DNA from: Natronomonas aquatica
Lineage (GTDB): Archaea; Halobacteriota; Halobacteria; Halobacteriales; Haloarculaceae
Length of the DNA: 32,192 bases
NCBI RefSeq assembly: GCF_024449025.1
Contig: NZ_JAHLKM010000029.1
Coordinates: 1-32,192, forward strand
Reading direction: 5' to 3'
Part shown: piece by piece, positions 264 through 30,740 of the stretch
Layout of the letters: each line of letters begins with the position of its first letter
Position numbering within the stretch: the first letter of the stretch is position 1
The notes under the pieces: generated by a model
Told to the model about the DNA's origin: nothing
Seen by the model: only the letters and a program-made list of their open reading frames with translations
Databases searched by the model: none
Translations under genes and position numbers: made by a program

Positions 264-2534
264 CTATCGACGACCGAACAGCCGCTCCCGAAGCGACCGC
301 GGGGTTGGCCGTTCGGCCAAAAGCACCGGCGTTTCGAGTCGCTCGATCGCCTCGAATGCGAGCGACCCGCGGACGATACGCGAGAGCAGCCCCCGCTCGG
401 TCGCCCCGATGACCACCAGGCTGTACTCGGCGCCGATCTCCCCGATCCGTTCCTCGACGTCGCCCGTTTCGATCCGGAGCTCCGCGTCCGCCAGTTCGTG
501 ACTCCCGGCCCACTCCTCGAGGAACTCGCGTCCGGCGGCCTCGTTCGATTCGCCCGGATCGACGATGTGCAACAGTGAGACGTCCACGCCGACAGCGTCC
601 CGGAGCGCCCGGGCGACCTCCGCGGAGAGATCCGAGGAGGGGCCGCCGGCCGTGGGGACGAGCACGTCCGTGAGATCGAGTTCTTCCCCGTCCAGCACGA
701 GGAAATCACACGGGAGGTCGTGGGTGAGCTCTTCGAGTTTGCCTTCCGCGCGTCCACCGGCGAACTGCGCGCCGCCATAGCCCATCACGACGGTGTCGGC
801 GCCGTTCGTCCGGGCGGCGTCGAAGACCTCCTCGATCCCGCGGTGTGAGAGGATCGTCTTCGTCTCGATCGGCGCGTCGAACGCCCCGGCGTCGATCTTC
901 GCGGCCTCGAGTAACTCCTCCGACGAGGCGTCGATCGCCGATCGGTTCTCGGCGGCGGCGGCGAGCGACGTCTGGTCCGGAACGGTGACGATATGCGTCG
1001 CGAGCACGCGACCGCCTTCGTGTTCGGCGAGCGCGCCGGCCAGCGTGATGAGGTCGCTTTCGGTTCGGGGGTTCGCCACGGCGACCATGATCGTCGGCCC
1101 CTCGTCTCCGGTCGGGGCGACGGCGTCGGCGGCGTCGACGATCTCTTCGGGGAGTTCCTCCTCGCGTCTCCGGATGTAGTCCGAGAGGACACCCTGCTGT
1201 GTCGTTTTATCGCGCGCATACAGGAAGTACCACACCACGGCGGCGACGACGAACCCGCCGGAGAGGGCGATCTCGACCCCGTCCATGAAGGCCACGAGCC
1301 CGAGCGACAGCAGCGCCCCGAGGATCGGCGTGATCGGGTACAGCGGAACCCTGAAGTCCGGATCGTACTCGGGGACCTCGGCCTCCCGGAAGACGATCAG
1401 CGCTACGTTCATCAGCGCATAGACGATGAGATGGAGGACGCTGGCAGCCTTCGCGAGCACTTCGATGTCCCGCCCCAGAAAAGCGATGAACACGATGATG
1501 AGCCCGCCCGTGACGAGGATGGACCGGTACGGCGTCGCGAAGTTCGGGTGGATCTCGTTGAGCCAGTCGGTGACGATCTTGTCCCGTCCCATCGCGAAGT
1601 TGATCCGCGCCGAGGCGAGGATCGAGGCATTCGCCGACGACGCCGTCGCCAGCAGCGCGCCGATGGTCATCACCGCCGCGGCAGCCGCCGCGATCCCGCC
1701 GATCGGTCCGATCGAGACGGGGAAGGCGACTTCGGCCGCCTGGGCGACGGGCGCGTCCTGGCTGAGTTCGGGCCAGGGGATGACCCCGAGCATCGTCGTC
1801 ACGAGGATCGCGTAGATGACTGTGACGATGGCGACGCTTCCGATGATCGCGATCGGGAGGTTCCGCCCGGGGTTTTTCAGCTCTTCGCCGACGGTGGCGA
1901 TCTTCGCGTACCCGAGAAAGGAGACGAACACAAGCGCCGTCGCCGGCAGGATCGCTCCGGTGCCGAAGGGTGTGAGTCCGTCTTCACCGGCGAGCGTCGC
2001 GTAATCGAACGAGAAAAAGCCCGCGACGGCGAAGACGGTGAGTATCGAAAGCAGGGTGAAAACGATGACCGTCTGGAGGCCGCCGGTCTCCTTGGCGCCG
2101 ATGTAGTTGACGGCGACGAAGACGGCCCCCGCCAGCAGCGCCCCGAGTTGGATCGGATTGAGAAACGCGATCGTCGGCAGGCCGACGAAGACGGCGAGAT
2201 ACTGTCCGAAGCCGATACAGTAGAACGCGGAGGCGAAGGCCAGACCCATCCAGTCGCCCATCCCGGCGATCGAGCCGAACATCGGCCCGAGCGACCTGTT
2301 GATGTAATAGTAGCCGCCGCCGGCCTTCGGCATCGCGGTGCCGAGTTCCGAGATCGACAGCGCGTTGACCATCGCGATCACGCCGACGACGACGAAGGAG
2401 ACGACGACGATCGGCCCGGCCGCGTTCGCGGCGACGCCGGGCAACACGAAGATCCCGGCGCCGATCATCGTCCCGATACCGATCGTCATCGCCGAGATCA
2501 ACCCGAGGTCCTTGGCGAGTTCCTCATCGCTCAT
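264..2534 (-). CDS. APC-family amino acid permease fused to two UspA domains
   Basis: 756 residues. Residues 1 to about 440 form an amino acid/polyamine/organocation (APC) transporter core with about 12 hydrophobic segments. The first segment carries a Gly-rich motif ([13 protein letters not shown], 21-33) typical of substrate-binding helix 1. Two universal stress protein domains follow at about 480-616 and 621-741. The second keeps a near-canonical nucleotide loop (GATE...GS, 710-724). The likely role is uptake of amino acids or related amines, with the cytoplasmic UspA pair as a nucleotide-sensing module; the substrate cannot be told. The ATG overlaps the stop of the upstream uspA gene (ATGA), so both are probably co-transcribed. 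It resembles the permease at 3349-5646 along its whole length, including the start (EELAKDLG) and the end (RERLFG). Confidence 0.9.
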   Translation of the reverse strand: MSDEELAKDLGLISAMTIGIGTMIGAGIFVLPGVAANAAGPIVVVSFVVVGVIAMVNALSISELGTAMPKAGGGYYYINRSLGPMFGSIAGMGDWMGLAFASAFYCIGFGQYLAVFVGLPTIAFLNPIQLGALLAGAVFVAVNYIGAKETGGLQTVIVFTLLSILTVFAVAGFFSFDYATLAGEDGLTPFGTGAILPATALVFVSFLGYAKIATVGEELKNPGRNLPIAIIGSVAIVTVIYAILVTTMLGVIPWPELSQDAPVAQAAEVAFPVSIGPIGGIAAAAAAVMTIGALLATASSANASILASARINFAMGRDKIVTDWLNEIHPNFATPYRSILVTGGLIIVFIAFLGRDIEVLAKAASVLHLIVYALMNVALIVFREAEVPEYDPDFRVPLYPITPILGALLSLGLVAFMDGVEIALSGGFVVAAVVWYFLYARDKTTQQGVLSDYIRRREEELPEEIVDAADAVAPTGDEGPTIMVAVANPRTESDLITLAGALAEHEGGRVLATHIVTVPDQTSLAAAAENRSAIDASSEELLEAAKIDAGAFDAPIETKTILSHRGIEEVFDAARTNGADTVVMGYGGAQFAGGRAEGKLEELTHDLPCDFLVLDGEELDLTDVLVPTAGGPSSDLSAEVARALRDAVGVDVSLLHIVDPGESNEAAGREFLEEWAGSHELADAELRIETGDVEERIGEIGAEYSLVVIGATERGLLSRIVRGSLAFEAIERLETPVLLAERPTPRSLRERLFGRR

Positions 2535-2971
2535 TCGTTCGAGTCGTCACGCGGGAGTGCGATTACCGGCCGATCCGCGTTCGTGACGAGTTTTATGGAG
2601 AGATCGCCGGAGAGAAACTGCATGAGGCGGTTGCCACCGCGAGCGCGGTACGCGATAGCGCTCGCATCGACAGTTTCGGCGGCTTCGAAGATCGCCCCGG
2701 CGACGTCCCGGGCGTAGGCGGTATGTTCGTCGGCGTCGGGGAAGACCCTGCGGACGGCGGCGTAGGACTCTTCGGCGAGTTCCTCGGATTGTTCGACGGG
2801 TGTTTTGTCGGGGACTCCCTCACCTTTCTCGACGACGTGGAGCGCAGTTACCTTTTCAGGCCCGTACGGTTCCAGGGCCATCGCCGTCTTCAGGGCGTCG
2901 TCCTCGTGGGCCACCGGCAGAAGGACGTGGCCGAGTAACTCCCGAGATCCGCTGCCCTGATTGTTTTCCAT
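2531..2971 (-). CDS. Universal stress protein (UspA) family
   Basis: 146 residues, the normal length of a single UspA domain, with a beta-strand start (HVLLPVAHEDDA) and an end (RPVIALPRDD) typical of the family. The nucleotide-binding loop is degenerate: the segment around GGNRLMQFLSGD lacks the usual G-x2-G-x9-G(S/T) spacing. It may therefore be a non-ATP-binding Usp acting through dimerisation with the UspA domains of the permease encoded downstream. The gene overlaps the permease start by four bases. Unusually for haloarchaea it has a good Shine-Dalgarno sequence (AAGGAG, complement of 2987-2992) before the ATG. A TATA box lies at 3020-3030. Confidence 0.85.
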   Translation of the reverse strand: MENNQGSGSRELLGHVLLPVAHEDDALKTAMALEPYGPEKVTALHVVEKGEGVPDKTPVEQSEELAEESYAAVRRVFPDADEHTAYARDVAGAIFEAAETVDASAIAYRARGGNRLMQFLSGDLSIKLVTNADRPVIALPRDDSNE

Positions 2972-3019
2972 ATTTGTCGATAACTACTCCTTGTTTTAAA
3001 AACATGTGGTGTTCCACGC

Positions 3020-3030
3020 TTTATATATAG
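3020..3030 (-). promoter_or_regulatory. TATA box for the uspA-permease operon
   Basis: TTTATATATAG on the plus strand reads CTATATATAAA on the minus strand. It lies about 50-60 bases before the uspA ATG at 2971. Initiation 25-27 bases downstream would leave a short leader containing the AAGGAG ribosome-binding site. Confidence 0.6.
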
Positions 3031-3161
3031 ATACTATTAATGCGAGCGTTGGAATCCAGTTTGTTTGTGACATTTACTGTTGTATCGGATCCTACGGGTT
3101 AACAAGTGCCGGTAGCGTCACCCAAAACTGTACGATCACCCGATAGTTCGGGCTTCCGGCG

Positions 3162-3172
3162 TTTATAATATA
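3162..3172 (+). promoter_or_regulatory. Probable TATA box for the second permease
   Basis: TTTATAATATA is the best TATA-like element upstream of the GTG at 3349. Initiation about 25 bases downstream would give a leader of roughly 150 bases, long for a haloarchaeal mRNA, ending in a GGAGG ribosome-binding site at 3336-3340. Confidence 0.5.
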
Positions 3173-3197
3173 GTACTCACCGCAGGTACGTACACAT

Positions 3198-3222
3198 CGA
3201 TCGCACTACGAGTGTGCGATCG
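3198..3222. repeat. 9-bp inverted repeat, possible operator or leader hairpin
   Basis: CGATCGCAC (3198-3206) and GTGCGATCG (3214-3222) are exact reverse complements around a 7-base spacer. The core GTGCGATC recurs at 3303-3310, 38 bases before the permease start. The repeat lies just after the predicted transcription start, so it could bind a repressor or fold in the mRNA. Confidence 0.5.
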
Positions 3223-3348
3223 CGTTGTATCGTCCGCCATCGCTACTATGGGAACTCATAAACCCGATGCCGCAAAACAGGAGACTATGATTCTTCGCTG
3301 TCGTGCGATCACCTGCTGGATATCCCACCAGGGACGGAGGGACGAACC

Positions 3349-5646
3349 GTGAGCGAGGAGGAACTCGCCAAGGACCTGGGGCCGCTTGCGGCCCTCACGA
3401 TCGGCGTCGGGACGATGATCGGGGCCGGAATCTTCGTGCTACCGGGGACGGCGGTGCTCCGGGCGGGCCCGCTTGCCGCGGTCACGTTCGTCCTCGGCGG
3501 CGTGATCGCGCTGTTTACCGCCCTTTCGGCGTCGGAACTCGGTACCGCGATGCCGAAATCCGGCGGCGCGTACTTCTACATCAACAAAGCGCTCGGACCG
3601 CTTTTCGGCTCCATCAGCGGGTGGGCCAACTGGCTCGGACTGGCCTTCGCCTCGGCATTTTATATGTACGGGCTCGGCGAGTACGTCAACACGCTCGTCG
3701 GCGCGCCCGCGCTCTCGGTCGGGCCGCTTTTTCTCGAAGCGGCGCAAGTCATCGGCTTCGTCGGCGCGCTGTTTTTCATCGCCGTCAACTACTTCGGCGC
3801 CAAGGAGACCGGCGGCCTCCAGATCATCATCGTGCTTTTGCTTTTGTGTATCCTCGGCCTTTTCACCGTCGTCGGGCTGTTGAACGCCGATCTCGAGTCG
3901 TTGCGACCGCTCGCACCGCCCGGCGCGGCGGCCGAGGTGTTGCCCGTCACCGCGATCGTCTTCGTCTCCTATCTCGGCTTCGTCCAGATCACCTCCGTCG
4001 CCGAGGAGATCAAAGACCCCGGCCGGAACCTACCGCGGGCCGTCATCGGTTCGGTCGTCCTCGTGACGGTCGTCTACGGGCTCTTCCTTCTGGTGCTTCT
4101 GGCGGCGGTGCCGAACGACCTCGTCGCCGGCAACGACACGGCCGTCGTCGACGCCGCCCAACTGCTCTTCGGCCAGTATAGCCTCTTCGGCTTCGAAATG
4201 GGCGTCTTCGGGTGGGCGCTTTTGCTCTTCGGCGGGCTGTTGGCGACGGCGTCGTCGGCGAACGCCTCGATCCTCTCGTCGTCGCGGATCAACTTCGCGA
4301 TGGGACGAGAAAAGATCGTCACGCCGAGCCTCAACGATATTCACACCCGGTTCGGCACGCCGTACAAGTCGATCGCGCTCACCGGCGCGTTGATCATCGT
4401 CTTCCTGCTCGGCGGCAACCTCGAGTTGCTTGCGACCGCCGGCTCGGTTTTACATCTGATCGTCTACGGGCTGTTGAACCTCGCGTTGATCGTGATGCGG
4501 GAGGCCGAACCGCCCGGATACGACCCCGATTTCGAGGTGCCGCTGTATCCCATCGTTCCGATCGTCGGCGCGATCACGTCTTTCGCCCTGATCGCGTACA
4601 TCGAACCGTTCGTGATCGTGCTCTCGGCCGGGCTTGTCGTCTTTGCGGCGCTCTGGTATTTCTTCTACGCGCGAAGCCGGGTCGAGGCCCGCGGCGTCCT
4701 CGCCGGCTGGATCCTCGATCGCTCCGAGGAACTCCCCGATGCGGCCGTCTCCGCGGCGACCTCCGTCCAGCCGGAAGGAGACGACTATCGGGTGCTGGTA
4801 CCGCTTTCGAACCCCGCGACAGAACAGCATCTCATCACGCTCGCTTCGGCGATCGCAAAACAGAACGACGGTACGGTCGTGGCCGTCAACATCGCGAACG
4901 TCCCAGACCAGACGTCGCTCGCGGCCGCCCGCGACCGCGGCGCCCACGACGCCGCGCGGGATCTGCTCGAACGCGCCCAGGCCGACGCCGAGACCTTCGG
5001 CGCCGAGATCGAGACCCACGTCGTCCTCTCACACCGGACCTTCGAAGAGATCTTCGACGCCGCCCGGACCTTCGGGGCCGACATCACGGTGATGGGATGG
5101 GGCGAGGACGCCCACGGTTCGCCCGGACGGGCCGAATCAGCCGTCGACGAACTGGCCTACTCGTTGCCCTGTGATTTCCTCGTCTTCCGGGATCGTGGCT
5201 TCGATGCTGCCCGAATCCTCGTGCCGACTGCAGGGGGGCCCGATTCGGACCTCTCGGCCGCCGTCGCCCGGATGTTGCGGGCGGAGTTCGACTCCGAGGT
5301 GACGCTTCTGCACGTCGCCGACGACGAATCCGAGGGCCGAGCCCTCCTCGAGCCGTGGGCCGACGAACACGGTCTCGCCGACGCCGAGTTGCGGATCGAG
5401 ACCGGTGACATCGGGGAAAGCATCGCCCGCGCTGCCGAGGAGGCGACGCTGCTCGTCATCGGAGCGACCGAACGGGGACTGATCTCGCGGCTCGTCCGTG
5501 GCTCGCTCGTGTTGGATGTTCTCTATGATGTCGATTGTTCGGTGCTTCTGGCCGAAAAGAAACACGGGCGGGGAGTCCGCGAACGTCTCTTCGGCGCCGG
5601 CGCGCGGGCCGACGACACCCGAAGCGACGTCGGAGACGACGACTGA
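3349..5646 (+). CDS. APC-family amino acid permease fused to two UspA domains (second copy)
   Basis: 765 residues. The APC transporter core covers about 1-440, with the same helix-1 signature ([13 protein letters not shown]) as the divergent paralogue. Two UspA domains follow at about 479-612 and 621-740. The second has a nucleotide loop of the form G-x2-E-x9-GS (GATE...RGS); the first lacks a clear loop. The GTG start is preferred because GGAGG precedes it at a suitable distance and the encoded N-terminus aligns with the paralogue's. The gene seems monocistronic with a long leader containing repeated octamers. It probably imports amino acids or amines under Usp-mediated control; the substrate is unknown. 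The two fusions look like an old duplication, with conserved segments throughout but clear divergence. Confidence 0.9.
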
Positions 5647-6034: not shown

Positions 6035-6433
6035 ATGGCCGAAACACACGATCTCCCCGAGACCGACGAGGAGTGGCGGGAACTACTCACCGACGAGGAG
6101 TACCGGATCCTCCGCGAGCAGGGCACCGAACCGAAGTTCTCCGGGGAGTACCTCGGGAAGGACGACGACGGGCGCTACCGGTGTGCCGGCTGTGGGGCCG
6201 AACTGTTCGATTCCGAGACGAAGTTCGACTCGAACTCGGGGTGGCCCTCCTTTTACGACGCAAAGGAGGGGGCCGTCGAGTTCCGCGAGGACAGAAGCCA
6301 CGGGATGGTCCGGACAGAAGTCGTCTGTGCGCGGTGTGAGGGCCATCTCGGCCACGTCTTCGAGGACGGCCCCGAGCCGACCGGCAAGCGGTTCTGCATG
6401 AACTCCGCTGCGCTGGAGTTCGACGAGTCCTGA
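6035..6433 (+). CDS. msrB: Peptide-methionine (R)-S-oxide reductase MsrB
   Basis: 132 residues. MsrB reduces the R epimer of methionine sulfoxide in oxidised proteins in the cytoplasm. The catalytic cysteine is Cys121 in RFCMNSAALEF. The structural zinc site is formed by two CxxC pairs (Cys50/53 and Cys98/101). The conserved SGWPSF and GHLGHVF segments are present. The start is set at the ATG at 6035 because the upstream frame is not MsrB-like and the family's N-terminal region begins here. It lies 196 bases upstream of ubaA on the same strand. In Haloferax a methionine sulfoxide reductase (MsrA) has been linked to sampylation, so the proximity may be meaningful. Confidence 0.95.
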   Translation: MAETHDLPETDEEWRELLTDEEYRILREQGTEPKFSGEYLGKDDDGRYRCAGCGAELFDSETKFDSNSGWPSFYDAKEGAVEFREDRSHGMVRTEVVCARCEGHLGHVFEDGPEPTGKRFCMNSAALEFDES

Positions 6434-6457
6434 GCGTCGACTTCGGCCGTCCGGCGA

Positions 6458-6468
6458 TTTATATACTA
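6458..6468 (+). promoter_or_regulatory. Strong TATA-like box without an adjacent gene
   Basis: TTTATATACTA lies 25 bases after the msrB stop and about 160 bases before ubaA, which has its own TATA box next to its start. It could drive a small RNA covering about 6490-6600 or an alternative long ubaA transcript. Confidence 0.45.
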
Positions 6469-6601
6469 TCGGGGGGCCAGACCGCCCGTGACCTGACCGA
6501 TCGACGGCGGTCCGCCGAAGCGAAAGCGCGGTGGACGGATCGCCGGACGGACCCACCGCCTGCACGCCAGACCCTCATCCGGCCGTCGGGACCCCCGGCA
6601 A

Positions 6602-6607
6602 TTTATA
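6602..6607 (+). promoter_or_regulatory. ubaA TATA box (leaderless promoter)
   Basis: TTTATA is centred about 25 bases before the ATG at 6630, the spacing expected when transcription starts at or next to the start codon. No Shine-Dalgarno sequence is present, consistent with a leaderless mRNA. Confidence 0.6.
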
Positions 6608-6629
6608 CGTGGGTATCCAACACCCGACC

Positions 6630-7442
6630 ATGTCCGATCTCTCGCTCGACGCCGAGCAACTCGATCGCTACTCCAGACACATCATCATGGACGGCATCGG
6701 CCCCGAGGGACAAAAACGGCTGCTCGGTTCGAACGTCCTCTGTATCGGGGCCGGCGGGCTCGGGTCGCCGATCCTGCAGTATCTGGCGGCCGCCGGCGTC
6801 GGGACGATCGGGATCGCCGACGACGACGTCGTCGAGCGGTCGAACCTCCAGCGGCAGGTCGTCCACGCCGACGCCGACGTGGGCCGCCCGAAGGTCGACT
6901 CCGCCCGGGAATTCATCGAACGCCAGAACCCCGACGTCGACGTCCGGACCCACGAGACGCGGGTGACCGCCGACAACGTCGAGTCGCTCATAGCTGACTA
7001 CGACGTCGTCGTCGACGGCTCCGACAACTTCGCGACCCGCTATCTCGTCAACGATGCCTGTACGCTCGCGGGCGTTCCCTTCGCCCACGGGGCGATCCTC
7101 CGGTTCGAGGGGCAGATGACCACCTTCGAGGCGAACGAGGGCGGACCCTGTTACCGGTGTCTCTTTCCCGAGGCGCCCGAACCCGGCACTGTCCCCGACT
7201 GTGCGACCGCCGGCGTGCTCGGGGTGTTGCCCGGAACCGTCGGCTGCATTCAGGCGACCGAGGCGATCAAACTCTGTCTGGAGCACGGCGAGACGCTCGA
7301 CGGGCGGATGATCTTCTACGACGCCGCGGACATGACGTTCCAGGAGGTCTCGATCGACCCTCGGCCGGACTGTCCGATCTGTGGCGAGGGCGGAATCGAG
7401 TCGATCCACGAGGTCACCTACGAGTCGACCTGCGCGATCTAG
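6630..7442 (+). CDS. ubaA: E1-like SAMP-activating/sulfur-carrier adenylyltransferase UbaA (ThiF/MoeB family)
   Basis: 270 residues. This family adenylates the C-terminal glycine of ubiquitin-like SAMP proteins. In haloarchaea a single enzyme serves protein sampylation, molybdopterin synthesis and tRNA thiolation. Visible features are the ATP-binding loop GAGGLG (40-45), the ERSNLQRQ helix (69-76), DGSDNFATR (129-137), the probable catalytic Cys191 in DCATAGVLG, and zinc ligands Cys174/177 and Cys248/251. There is no rhodanese domain, as in archaeal UbaA. The ATG at 6630 is chosen because a TATA box sits at leaderless spacing and the protein then begins at the family's usual N-terminus. A JAMM protease gene at 28243 could encode the opposing desampylase. 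Confidence 0.9.
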   Translation: MSDLSLDAEQLDRYSRHIIMDGIGPEGQKRLLGSNVLCIGAGGLGSPILQYLAAAGVGTIGIADDDVVERSNLQRQVVHADADVGRPKVDSAREFIERQNPDVDVRTHETRVTADNVESLIADYDVVVDGSDNFATRYLVNDACTLAGVPFAHGAILRFEGQMTTFEANEGGPCYRCLFPEAPEPGTVPDCATAGVLGVLPGTVGCIQATEAIKLCLEHGETLDGRMIFYDAADMTFQEVSIDPRPDCPICGEGGIESIHEVTYESTCAI

Positions 7443-7463
7443 CGCCGCGATTCCGGCGCGGAG

Positions 7464-8261
7464 CTACCCTGCCGGGGTCGGCGGGTGACGACGCTTGTGG
7501 GCGGTCATCTCGTGTCGGCGGACGATCCGATCGACCACCCCCGCGTCGACCTCGAGCGTCGCCGCGATCCGCTCGGGGCTCTCGTTTTCTTCGATCAACC
7601 GCCCGAGGACCGCATCGATCACCGACTGGGGGGCCTCGAGGTCGTGGCTGTCCGATCGGCCGGGATAGAAGCCGACGGCGGCGGGCCGTTCGGTGACGAA
7701 CGGGGGGATCTCGAGTTCGTCGGCGAGCCGTTCGACCTCGGTCCGGTAGAGTCCGCCCAGCGGCCGGAGGTCGGCCGCACCGTCGCCGTGTTTCGCGAAC
7801 GAGCCCAACAGGAACTCGCTTTTCGTCGTGGTTCCGGCGACGAGCCGCGCCGTCGCGTTGGCCGACAGATACAGCATCGTCATCCGCAGACGGGCGACGA
7901 GGTTCTCGCGGACGATCGGGTCGCCGTGGAGGTCGGTATGTGGTGCCAGGTTCCCGAACTGGACGAGCAACTGCTGGAGGTGGACCGTCTCGGAGTCGAT
8001 CCCGAGGACATCGCTGACGGCTTCGGCGTCCCGGGCGCTCCGCGAGCCGATCTTGCTGCTCGGGAGCACGAGCCCCGAAACGTCGTCGGTCCCGAGCGCC
8101 TCGACCGCGAGCGTCGCGACGACCGTCGAGCCGAGGCCGCCGTCGAGTCCGACCACGACGCCCTCGGCGTCGGCCGTGCTCACGATCGAACGGATGAACG
8201 CGACACACTCTTCGCACATGGCGGCCGTGTCGTCACGGAACTCTGCCGTCCGATCGGCCAT
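7464..8261 (-). CDS. NAD synthetase (NadE)-like protein with altered ATP-binding loop
   Basis: 265 residues, the normal length of ammonia-dependent NadE, which converts deamido-NAD to NAD with ATP. Much of the family signature is present: ENLVARLRMTMLY (119-131), VAGTTTKSEFLLGSFAKHGD (141-160), ADLRPLGGLYRTEV (163-176) and a C-terminal HKRRHPP. However, the N-type pyrophosphatase loop, normally SGGxDS, reads DGGLGS (40-45), so both the first Ser and the Asp are replaced. The usual PSAGLWxGQTDE segment reads PAAVGFYPGRSDS (193-205). The enzyme may be an unusual active form or a non-synthetic paralogue. The start at 8261 gives the usual N-terminal length. A TATA-like sequence lies about 70-80 bases upstream. 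The gene converges with ubaA, 21 bases apart. Confidence 0.8.
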   Translation of the reverse strand: MADRTAEFRDDTAAMCEECVAFIRSIVSTADAEGVVVGLDGGLGSTVVATLAVEALGTDDVSGLVLPSSKIGSRSARDAEAVSDVLGIDSETVHLQQLLVQFGNLAPHTDLHGDPIVRENLVARLRMTMLYLSANATARLVAGTTTKSEFLLGSFAKHGDGAADLRPLGGLYRTEVERLADELEIPPFVTERPAAVGFYPGRSDSHDLEAPQSVIDAVLGRLIEENESPERIAATLEVDAGVVDRIVRRHEMTAHKRRHPPTPAG

Positions 8262-8494
8262 CCTCTCAGCCCCTGTTCCTTCCCGGGCGTTCGTCCGCCG
8301 GTCGCCGGTGACTCGGTCGTTCCATCGTTCGTGTATAAACAGTCACTGGAGACCGTATAAGGATTGTCTACAGACACCTTATTATTCATTTTACAATCAC
8401 TCATCCATTATCTCCGAATAGACAGAAACGATCGTTGGAAACATCGTCCCACGGCGTCCAGCGACCGGGAGGGCCTGCCGTTTCGGTCCCCGGG

Positions 8495-8929
8495 TCAGTC
8501 CGATCCGAGCGGGACGACCAGCGTCGGCTGGGTGGCCTCCGAGACCACGTCCTGTGCGACGCTCCCGAGCATCCGCCGCTCGTGGCCGTCCTTGCTGCGG
8601 GTTCCCATCACGAGGAGATCGGCACCGATTCCCTCGGCGTACGCGAGGATCTCCTCGCCCGGCCGTCCGCGCCGGACGGTGACGCTGCTTTCGACGCCCG
8701 CCTCCTCTGCGGCCCCCGAGATCGTCTCCACGGCGCCTTGCGCGTTCGCTTCGAGCTCTCCCTCGACTGCGTCGGTCAGCTCCTCATCGAGCGTGAGAAA
8801 GACGTTGCTGTCGATGACCGAAAGCGCATGGAGAGTCGCCCCGCGCTGTTTCGCCATGTCGATGGCGCGCTCGATGACCGCTTCCATCCCTTCCCCGCCG
8901 TCCGTCGGAACGAGAATGTCGTCGTACAT
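8495..8929 (-). CDS. Universal stress protein (UspA) family
   Basis: 144 residues, a single UspA domain starting with the classic MYDDILVPTDGG. The nucleotide loop GTRS-x9-GS matches the ATP-binding G-x2-G-x9-G(S/T) pattern except for Ser at the second Gly, so nucleotide binding is likely. The start is the ATG at 8929; the frame extends upstream, but the extension is not Usp-like. An AATAAAC element at 8960-8966 is at promoter distance. It is divergent from a second uspA gene at 9035, with 105 bases between, so the two may share regulatory sites. Confidence 0.88.
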   Translation of the reverse strand: MYDDILVPTDGGEGMEAVIERAIDMAKQRGATLHALSVIDSNVFLTLDEELTDAVEGELEANAQGAVETISGAAEEAGVESSVTVRRGRPGEEILAYAEGIGADLLVMGTRSKDGHERRMLGSVAQDVVSEATQPTLVVPLGSD

Positions 8930-9034
8930 CGGATTCGTCCGCACGTTATCGTGACGAGGAATAAACTGTTGTGAACCTCCCGTCGGCCGGGATCGGGCGA
9001 AACGAATAGGTGGGGCCCACGCCCACGCTTGGGT

Positions 9035-9484
9035 ATGTACGACAGATTGCTGTTGCCCGTCGACACGAGCGCCGGATCCGAACGGGCGATCGACCACGCC
9101 CTCGACGCCGCCGAACGGTACGACGCCGAGCTACACGTCCTCTATGTCGTCGATACCGACGCCTACAGCTCCTATACGGGCGACGAGTACGTCCACGAGT
9201 TCGAGGGGCTCGAGAGCGCGCTCGAACAGGCCGGTAACGAGGCGATCGAGGAGGTCATCGAGGCGGCCGAATCGGCCGGCGTCGACGCCGAGTCGGCGAT
9301 CAGACACGGCGTCCCCCACGAGGAGATCCTCGCGTACGCCGAGGAGGCCGATGTCGGGCTGACCGTTATCGGATCGAAGAACCGTTCGGGGGAGTACCGC
9401 CGGTTGCTCGGCAGCGTCGCCGAACGGGTGACGCGGATGGCCCATCGGCCGGTCACCGTCGTCAAGACGCCCGTCGAGGAGTAA
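9035..9484 (+). CDS. Universal stress protein (UspA) family
   Basis: 149 residues, a single UspA domain beginning MYDRLLLPVDTSAGSE. The nucleotide loop GSKN-x9-GS is close to the ATP-binding consensus. Homology to the divergent uspA at 8495 is visible in the start, the EEILAYAE segment and the RRxLGSVA segment, so the pair probably arose by duplication. The ATG at 9035 is preferred over a TTG six bases upstream because the family starts with M-Y-D. No ribosome-binding site is evident, consistent with a leaderless mRNA. Likely role: stress-responsive nucleotide-binding regulator. Confidence 0.88.
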   Translation: MYDRLLLPVDTSAGSERAIDHALDAAERYDAELHVLYVVDTDAYSSYTGDEYVHEFEGLESALEQAGNEAIEEVIEAAESAGVDAESAIRHGVPHEEILAYAEEADVGLTVIGSKNRSGEYRRLLGSVAERVTRMAHRPVTVVKTPVEE

Positions 9485-28871: not shown

Positions 28872-30203
28872 TCAGGCGCCGTCCGGCGACGGAGCCACGA
28901 ACTGCCCCTCGTCGTCAAACTCGACGGGGGCGGGCTCGGCCACGACCCGGAGGTCATCGCGCTCGCGGGCGGCCGTTATCAGGGGTTCGGAGGCGTAACA
29001 CCGCTTCAGCCGCATCGTGTCCGTCACGCGGAGGATGCGTGCCTCGTCGCCGGGAACGGGGCCGATGGTCCCCAGCGAGGCCAGCAGGCCCGCACGGTCG
29101 GTCTCGACGACGGGCGGCAACCGCACTCCACGGACGGTACTGGCCGTGATGGCGTTGATGAGCGACTTCGACCACTCGAGCCCCTCCAGGACGTCCTCGT
29201 GGGCGAGGTCGGCCTGGCCCATCCCCATCGCGTTGCCTTTGGTCTTCGCGGTGTATCCGCGGAGGTAGATCCGCTTTATATCGGGCGATTCGGGCTCGGG
29301 TTCGTTGATGGTGAAGTGTCGCCGGCCGGTGACGTTCGTGTCCATCCCCTGCCCGCTGACGTCCTTTCCTAGCTGGTCGACGACGAGGACGTCCAGCCCC
29401 TCGAAAGGCAGTTTCGGCATCCGCTCCCAGGCCATCTCGAGCAGTTCCGCCTCCCGGTCGAGGAACTCCGAGGCGGGCACGCCCTCGATGAGCGTGGTGT
29501 CGTCGTGTTCGTCCTCGACGATGGCGACGCCACCGAGGACCGGCAGGTCCGAAAGCAGCCGCTGGGCGATCTCGGGGAGCATGTTCCGCAGACTCCAGTC
29601 GACGGCCCAGTCGTGGGCCATCTTCGCCCCCCGCTGTTTGCCCATGCCGATGACGAGCATCTTCGAGAGCCCGCTTTCGACCTCGCCGCCGAAATCGGTG
29701 TGGGGTTTGATACGGTTGACCGGGACGATGGCGTCGGCCTCGGCCGCGATGGCGTCGAAATACACCGGTACGTCGCGTTCGGGCGTCCGGCCGACCTCGA
29801 CGACGTCCATCGTCGCGCGGATCTCACAGCCGACCGCTTCCTCGGTGACGCCGAGCGTGGCGAGTTTCTCCCGTTGGCCGTCGGCGGTCGCGCCGCCGTG
29901 GCTCCCCATCGCCGGGAAGACGAAGGGGTCGTACCCCTGCTCGTGTACGCCGCGAACGACGCCTCCGACGATGGCCGGCAGGTTCGCGATGCCGCGACTG
30001 CCGGCTCCGACGGCCACTTCCCCACCTTCGGGGACGTCCCCGAAGTCGAGCTCCCTCACTGCCGTCGCTGCCCGGTCTTCGATCCCCGCCTCCGGAATCG
30101 GGTCGACGTCCCAGACCTGTTCGACGACGCCCATCTGCGGGAGGGCGATTTCGCCACAGGCCCGTCTGACGTCCGCTTCGGGTACTGCGAGTCCCTCTCT
30201 CAT
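28872..30203 (-). CDS. LarA-like (DUF2088) protein, possible nickel-pincer isomerase
   Basis: 443 residues. The N-terminal region resembles the lactate racemase LarA/DUF2088 domain: GAGSRGIANLPAIVGGVV (67-84) and PAMGSHGGATADGQREKL (97-114), where LarA binds substrate and cofactor. Further candidates for active-site residues are Lys166 and His168 in NRIKPHTDFGG and His197 in AKMAHDWA. It could therefore be a nickel-pincer-dependent epimerase or racemase of hydroxyacids; the substrate is unknown. No larB, larC or larE gene is in the window. The ATG at 30203 is chosen because an AT-rich promoter (complement of 30226-30235) lies at leaderless distance; a longer form starting further upstream is less likely. 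Confidence 0.75.
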   Translation of the reverse strand: MREGLAVPEADVRRACGEIALPQMGVVEQVWDVDPIPEAGIEDRAATAVRELDFGDVPEGGEVAVGAGSRGIANLPAIVGGVVRGVHEQGYDPFVFPAMGSHGGATADGQREKLATLGVTEEAVGCEIRATMDVVEVGRTPERDVPVYFDAIAAEADAIVPVNRIKPHTDFGGEVESGLSKMLVIGMGKQRGAKMAHDWAVDWSLRNMLPEIAQRLLSDLPVLGGVAIVEDEHDDTTLIEGVPASEFLDREAELLEMAWERMPKLPFEGLDVLVVDQLGKDVSGQGMDTNVTGRRHFTINEPEPESPDIKRIYLRGYTAKTKGNAMGMGQADLAHEDVLEGLEWSKSLINAITASTVRGVRLPPVVETDRAGLLASLGTIGPVPGDEARILRVTDTMRLKRCYASEPLITAARERDDLRVVAEPAPVEFDDEGQFVAPSPDGA

Positions 30204-30740
30204 GGTCGGGAACTCTGACGGCTGGACAAATAAACACACGGACCGCGCAGTGCTGGCCACGCATACGGCGCTCGTGGATGTGCCGGTGTCGTGGACCTGG
30301 CGGGGTTTCGTTACGCCGCGTGAAAAGTTCGTTTTAACCTCTTTGCTGTCTGTCGGTTCGGCTGACGAGTAAGGATGTTTGTTATATCCTTATAATACAG
30401 TTCATCCGGCTCGTCAACTGCGGATCGGTACGAGACGGGGACCGAGCCCTAACAACTATTTTAAGTACGATACATCCGTTTCGTTCCGAAAACGCTTGAC
30501 GGCTGTCGTGTACGTTACGAGTCCTTGCTCCCGTGGCAAATTCAAATATCTCTACAAACCCATACTAGCTAGAACGAGTGCGGCGAGTCTGTACACCCCG
30601 GACCCCATCGTACATAGGAGAGACAAACTACTGCTGGTCCGCAATTAGGCGCATACGTACGGTAGCTGTGCCCGAGGCGGATTCCCGTGTGGACGCATCT
30701 CACCCTAACCGATTTAATACAGTATTGTGAATAATGTGTA
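30204..30740. other. Intergenic region, AT-rich, with divergent promoters
   Basis: This 537-base stretch holds the LarA-like promoter (complement of 30226-30235) and the PAS-gene TATA box (30712-30719). An inverted repeat AAGGAT-N9-ATCCTT lies at 30371-30391, next to an AT-rich segment. One 89-codon open frame (30379-30648) is rich in Arg, Tyr and Pro, lacks the acidic bias of haloarchaeal proteins and is not accepted as a gene. Confidence 0.6.
30712..30719 (+). promoter_or_regulatory. TATA box of the PAS-protein gene
   Basis: ATTTAATA lies 22-29 bases before the ATG at 30741, the spacing of a leaderless haloarchaeal promoter. Confidence 0.55.

Follow-up and report, generated by a model that had tools for sequence, protein, structure and literature searches.

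A NadE-like protein of Natronomonas aquatica with a substituted active site: a probable retained pseudoenzyme of the NAD synthetase fold

The NadE-like gene and its altered positions

The window, which is the whole stretch of 32,192 nucleotides analyzed from a contig of Natronomonas aquatica, carries a gene for a NadE-like protein on its minus strand. The gene, the altered sites within it and one upstream element are as follows.

7464..8261, minus strand: NadE-like coding sequence, 265 aa, with an ATG start at 8261, a TAG stop and no internal stops in the translation
8127..8144, minus strand: pyrophosphate loop DGGLGS for SGGxDS, residues 40-45 (Ser40 to Asp, Asp44 to Gly), from the sequence and alignment
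7824..7826, minus strand: Thr146 for a near-invariant Asn, in the column of B. subtilis His160
7800..7802, minus strand: Ser154 for an invariant Tyr, in the column of B. subtilis Phe168, the probable nicotinate-stacking position
7743..7745, minus strand: Arg173 for a near-invariant Lys (LYKTEV to LYRTEV), from the alignment
7647..7661, minus strand: P2-loop segment GRSDS for GQTDE/GQSD, residues 201-205 (Gln202 to Arg)
7626..7637, minus strand: EAPQ after the P2 loop, residues 209-212 (Gly209 to Glu, Tyr212 to Gln), with both residues lost in all three Natronomonas orthologues
8341..8372, minus strand: upstream AT-rich stretch with TTATA elements, partly common to the three orthologues, tentatively a promoter candidate

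Translation of the open reading frame confirmed the two substituted motifs, DGGLGS for SGGxDS and GRSDS for GQTDE, that an earlier note had read from the same DNA. The loop stands in the context VGLDGGLGST (residues 37-46), and its exact position differs slightly from the approximate 8125-8143 first given. Three of the signatures described as kept are indeed retained (KSEFLLG, GDGAADL and the HKR tail), but LYRTEV does not belong with them, since it contains the exchange of Lys173, a residue that 98-99% of intact relatives have. This is presumably the catalytic phosphate lysine of the family. The losses at positions 146, 154, 209 and 212 extend the original list. A scan for promoters and terminators, made without archaeal promoter models, gave no matches.

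Other genes in the window include one at 28872-30260 (minus strand) for a 462-aa DUF362/lactate-racemase-N-like protein, possibly a divergent LarA type, which matches PF04015 just over the cut-off and PF09861 just under it. At 264-5646, a Usp-like gene stands between the genes for two related amino-acid-permease-like proteins, each of about 760 aa, and the Natronomonas genomes G121 and G123 have related genes close to this locus.

Family, predicted fold and active site

The protein belongs to the Pfam NAD_synthase family (PF02540, 207.6 bits against a cut-off of 21) and passes the broader TIGR00552 model (183.6 against 63.65). For the NAD+ synthase equivalog model of NCBIfam, PRK13980, its score of 214.9 bits falls below the curated cut-off of 255. 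An AlphaFold2 model built from 33 aligned sequences had a pLDDT of 87.7 and a pTM of 0.88, and the best match among solved structures in a Foldseek search was the P. horikoshii NAD synthetase 2e18 (TM 0.86). The NadE scaffold is thus predicted to be intact.

Compared with the NH3-dependent NadE enzymes (P. horikoshii PH0182/2e18, B. subtilis 1nsy/1kqp and M. jannaschii MJ1352), the protein has the same fold, length and Pfam family, and it likewise conserves Arg124/Arg126, Asp160/Asp164 and the core. Unlike them, it has replacements in the pyrophosphate loop, the phosphate lysine, the nicotinate-stacking aromatic residue and the P2 loop. Where a NadE enzyme would have SGGxDS(T), Lys173, an aromatic residue at the nicotinate and Gln, Gly and Tyr in the P2 region, the window protein has DGGLGS, Arg173, Ser154 and Arg202, Glu209 and Gln212. 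A NadE homologue with altered specificity, the NMN synthetase of F. tularensis (3fiu), was 28% identical in the fold comparison. That protein is an active enzyme (PMC3376133), and its loop in the PDB alignment begins with SGG and reads SGGIDS, unlike DGGLGS.

In human NAD synthetase, the ATP pyrophosphate motif binds MgPPi, Tyr525 stabilizes the nicotinate ring and the P2 loop shuts over the active site (PMC6946656). Judging from the sequences, Tyr525 is probably equivalent to column 154, and the loss of this probable nicotinate-stacking position argues against tight binding of NaAD. The window protein retains Glu149, Lys157, Asp160, Asp164 and His255, and it could have residual metal or nucleotide binding through Glu149, Lys157 and His255.

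A canonical nadE in the same genome

The earlier note had proposed looking for a second, canonical nadE, and one was found. The genome (82 contigs, 3.2 Mb, 99.4% complete) carries on another contig a fully canonical copy with IGLSGGIDST and GQTDE, scoring 274.9 bits in the Pfam search and 357 against the cut-off of 255 for PRK13980. This copy and the window protein share 37% identity. The cell therefore does not rely on the window protein to make NAD. All 13 further genomes that were checked also have canonical copies, and each checked genome with a degenerate copy has a canonical NadE. Some Natronomonas genomes (G120 and G132) have only the canonical copy.

These results bear on the suggestion that the lineage uses a different loop chemistry. 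Both the canonical nadE of this genome and the copy in G121 at the same locus as the window gene keep SGGxDS, which contradicts it; the suggestion is also unsupported because the changes are not confined to the loop and include the phosphate lysine and the probable site of nicotinate stacking. That the window protein alone is a working NAD synthetase with an unusual loop is very unlikely. The predicted fold, several signatures and the remaining Glu149, Asp160, Asp164, Lys157 and HKR tail speak for such an enzyme. However, the loop and the phosphate contacts are altered together, the orthologues lose still more (Glu149 to Asp, Lys157 to Glu or Arg, and Asn120), and a canonical enzyme exists in the same genome. 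In addition, a single substitution in the SGGxDST motif of Salmonella NadE raises the ammonia Km about 70-fold (PMC3376133).

Orthologues and locus

Identity to the window protein was highest in proteins of four genomes, G134 (67%), G121 (64%), G123 (58%) and G122 (56%), followed by a large group from family f2 at 51-56%. We presume G121 to be N. pharaonis and the f2 genomes (f2/g23) to be Halorubrum. The gene occupies the same locus in G134, G121 and G123 as in the window, convergent with ubaA and near msrB. This arrangement was found in only four Natronomonas genomes, and the others have no copy beside ubaA. A functional link to UbaA, the SAMP-activating E1, was considered and rejected, since an adjacency of such narrow distribution points to positional linkage. 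The neighboring genes gave no metabolic hint.

In the maximum-likelihood tree, the window protein, G134 and G123 form one clade (support 100/98) with G121 as sister. The trio remained monophyletic when the catalytic columns were removed, with support down to 89/80. The alignment included B. subtilis NadE, whose sequence was confirmed against the PDB chain. It contained 44 columns that were at least 97% invariant in the 68 other sequences. Eight of these were lost in all three orthologues, namely Ser40, Asp44, Asn146, Tyr154, Lys173, Gln202, Gly209 and Tyr212, each conserved in 97-100% of the other 68 homologues. The intact paralogues of G121 and family f2, an orthologous clade 49-63% identical to the window protein, keep SGGLDS, Tyr154, Lys173 and the P2-loop residues, all of which the window protein has lost.

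The loops of the orthologues are DSGLAS in G134, DGGVES in G123 and the canonical SGGLDS in G121. A sequencing or assembly error at 8125-8143, which the earlier note had named as a possible refutation, can be dismissed for practical purposes. The window lies on a draft contig of an 82-contig assembly, which would leave room for an error, but the gene has changes in eight catalytic columns along its length and keeps its reading frame intact, and matching losses occur in two independent genomes (G134 and G123).

Selection after the loss

A branch codon model (GY94-type, F3x4) gave omega values of 0.082 on the post-loss branches and 0.064 on the background branches (lnL -5023.2), values that are rough, as synonymous sites are near saturation. 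Fixing omega at 1 on the post-loss branches lowered lnL to -5139.2, a drop of about 116 log units. Despite the rough values, neutral evolution after the loss is clearly rejected. Pairwise omega between degenerate sequences ranged from 0.03 to 0.13, with neutrality rejected for every pair. With an omega of about 0.08 and neutrality rejected, the gene is therefore no decaying pseudogene.

It is quite improbable on this evidence that the gene is a leftover, dispensable paralogue whose constraint has relaxed and which is heading for loss. Such a relic would be consistent with the faster evolution of the paralogue compared with the canonical NadE of the same species (amino acid identity within the trio of 0.57-0.66 versus 0.79-0.83), with the genomes that have a canonical copy only and with the lack of a gene beside ubaA in most of Natronomonas. 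Against it stand the rejection of neutrality and the intact open reading frames in three diverged species, in which the segments GLVLPSSK and DLHGDP are highly identical.

Degenerate NadE-like proteins in other haloarchaea

The SGGxDS motif was kept in 163 of 174 distinct NadE-like sequences. Of the 72 rows in a tree, 12 were degenerate sequences, counting the window protein, and the tree required at least four separate changes. The first group is the Natronomonas trio. The second comprises G435, G245 and G282 of family f5 together with G219, and the third is a pair, G376 and G281, from genus g68. The fourth consists of the C-terminal halves of tandem NadE-NadE proteins in the Halobaculum (g63) genomes G331, G335 and G260. 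All 12, although chosen by the loop alone, have jointly lost Ser40, Tyr154 and Lys173, and all 12 keep Arg124, Arg126, Asp164, Asp216 and the core positions.

In the Halobaculum tandem proteins (for example, that of H. magnesiiphilum), the C-terminal half has lost the same residues as the window protein. Its loops are GTGRES, GAGRES or GAGVDA, with Ala at position 173 and Arg at 154, and selection acts on this half as well, with a pairwise omega of 0.087 between the two closest sequences. In all three proteins the N-terminal half is intact. Thus the degenerate domain is fused to an intact one, whereas the window protein is free-standing. Both halves are intact in the Halobaculum congener G295 and in the Haladaptatus and Halocatena-type tandem proteins.

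Several other NadE-like arrangements were observed in the survey. In G122, two adjoining NadE-like genes follow a urease cluster (L039 14-7607; ureC/G/D/E/F-like by eye) that would provide ammonia, and a second tandem pair lies elsewhere in this genome (L038). An insert of about 40 residues before the GNxxxRxR helix occurs in NadE-like proteins of G122 (L039 5831-6736 and L038 8605-9684) and G118 (L117 6840-7739). The two G122 proteins with the insert make up a separate branch close to canonical NadE. On a plasmid of Haladaptatus pallidirubidus, a tandem fused NAD+ synthase (L103 9131-10831) directly follows genes at 6108-9128 for a DUF7331-like protein, an amt ammonium transporter, a PII regulator and a 7-cyano-7-deazaguanine synthase-like protein. 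PII control of NadE is known in bacteria (PMC7196632), and this locus is a candidate haloarchaeal parallel. Small proteins are encoded upstream of tandem NadE-NadE genes at L102 7615-9620, L103 6108-6368 and L106 7679-9650, and those of L102 and L103 have a weak DUF7331 match just under the cut-off.

The survey also provided the evidence for a neofunctionalized enzyme, in which an altered site (Asp-Gly-Gly-x-non-Asp-Ser/Thr with Arg or Ser at 173) would carry out another reaction on a nucleotide substrate. Parallel changes would fit this: Ser40 to Asp in the Natronomonas trio and in the f5 group L216/L226/L218, Tyr154 to Ser in both the trio and L216, Lys173 to Arg in the window protein, G134, L216 and L226, and DGGVE followed by Ser or Thr in G123 and L216/L226. 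The strong purifying selection would fit as well. However, the three orthologues carry Gly, Ala or Glu at position 44 and Arg or Ser at 173, more variation than a new site would be expected to show, and there is no diagnostic neighbor gene. We consider such an enzyme unlikely. Of the other activity that the earlier note had offered as an option, one part stands, in that the protein is most likely no NAD synthetase; no sign of a new enzymatic activity was seen.

Discussion

The best explanation for the window protein, to which we assign a probability of roughly 0.65, is a retained NadE-fold pseudoenzyme. Catalytic residues are lost, the fold is predicted to be kept, and purifying selection continued after the loss. 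The broader statement that the protein is no NAD synthetase and yet still functional is very probable, and the sequence comparisons support both inactivity and selection well. ATP-dependent adenylation and amidation of NaAD would be lost because the protein lacks the loop Ser and Asp, the Lys, the probable nicotinate-stacking aromatic residue and the P2-loop residues. On this reading, the separate canonical NadE makes the NAD, and the window protein would work without catalysis.

As such a pseudoenzyme, the protein might pair as a subunit with an active NadE-fold protein or act as a nucleotide-binding regulator. The partner role in particular is put forward tentatively. It fits two observations: the NaAD sites of the NadE family are built at the dimer interface (PMC6946656), and Halobaculum fuses live and dead domains. 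For the window protein, which is neither fused to nor adjoining another NadE, this role is proposed by analogy with Halobaculum and the tandem genes of G122. A free-standing Natronomonas protein would need to pair with the canonical NadE or with itself. A more general proposal, rather doubtful at present, is that dead NadE subunits arose at least four times in haloarchaea and pair with active NadE, thereby regulating NAD synthesis. In Halobaculum the dead subunit would then be one half of a fusion, and in Natronomonas a protein of its own.

The fold, the family and the existence of a NadE homologue with changed specificity (the F. tularensis NMN synthetase) were already known. In a search of the open-access literature, no paper was found that described NadE paralogues inactivated repeatedly and kept under selection. 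The name NadE2 was avoided here because it is in use for the bacterial glutamine-dependent type (PMC7196632).

These proteins matter for several reasons. First, databases list such proteins, the Halobaculum fusions among them, as NAD+ synthase, which would lead metabolic reconstructions to treat them as active. Secondly, pairing with dead subunits, if true, would be an undescribed kind of NAD synthetase regulation. Lastly, dead NadE paralogues arose repeatedly and are under selection, in some cases with a live domain attached. This suggests an unrecognized layer, regulatory or structural, in the NAD synthesis of archaea, which could be tested in culturable haloarchaea.
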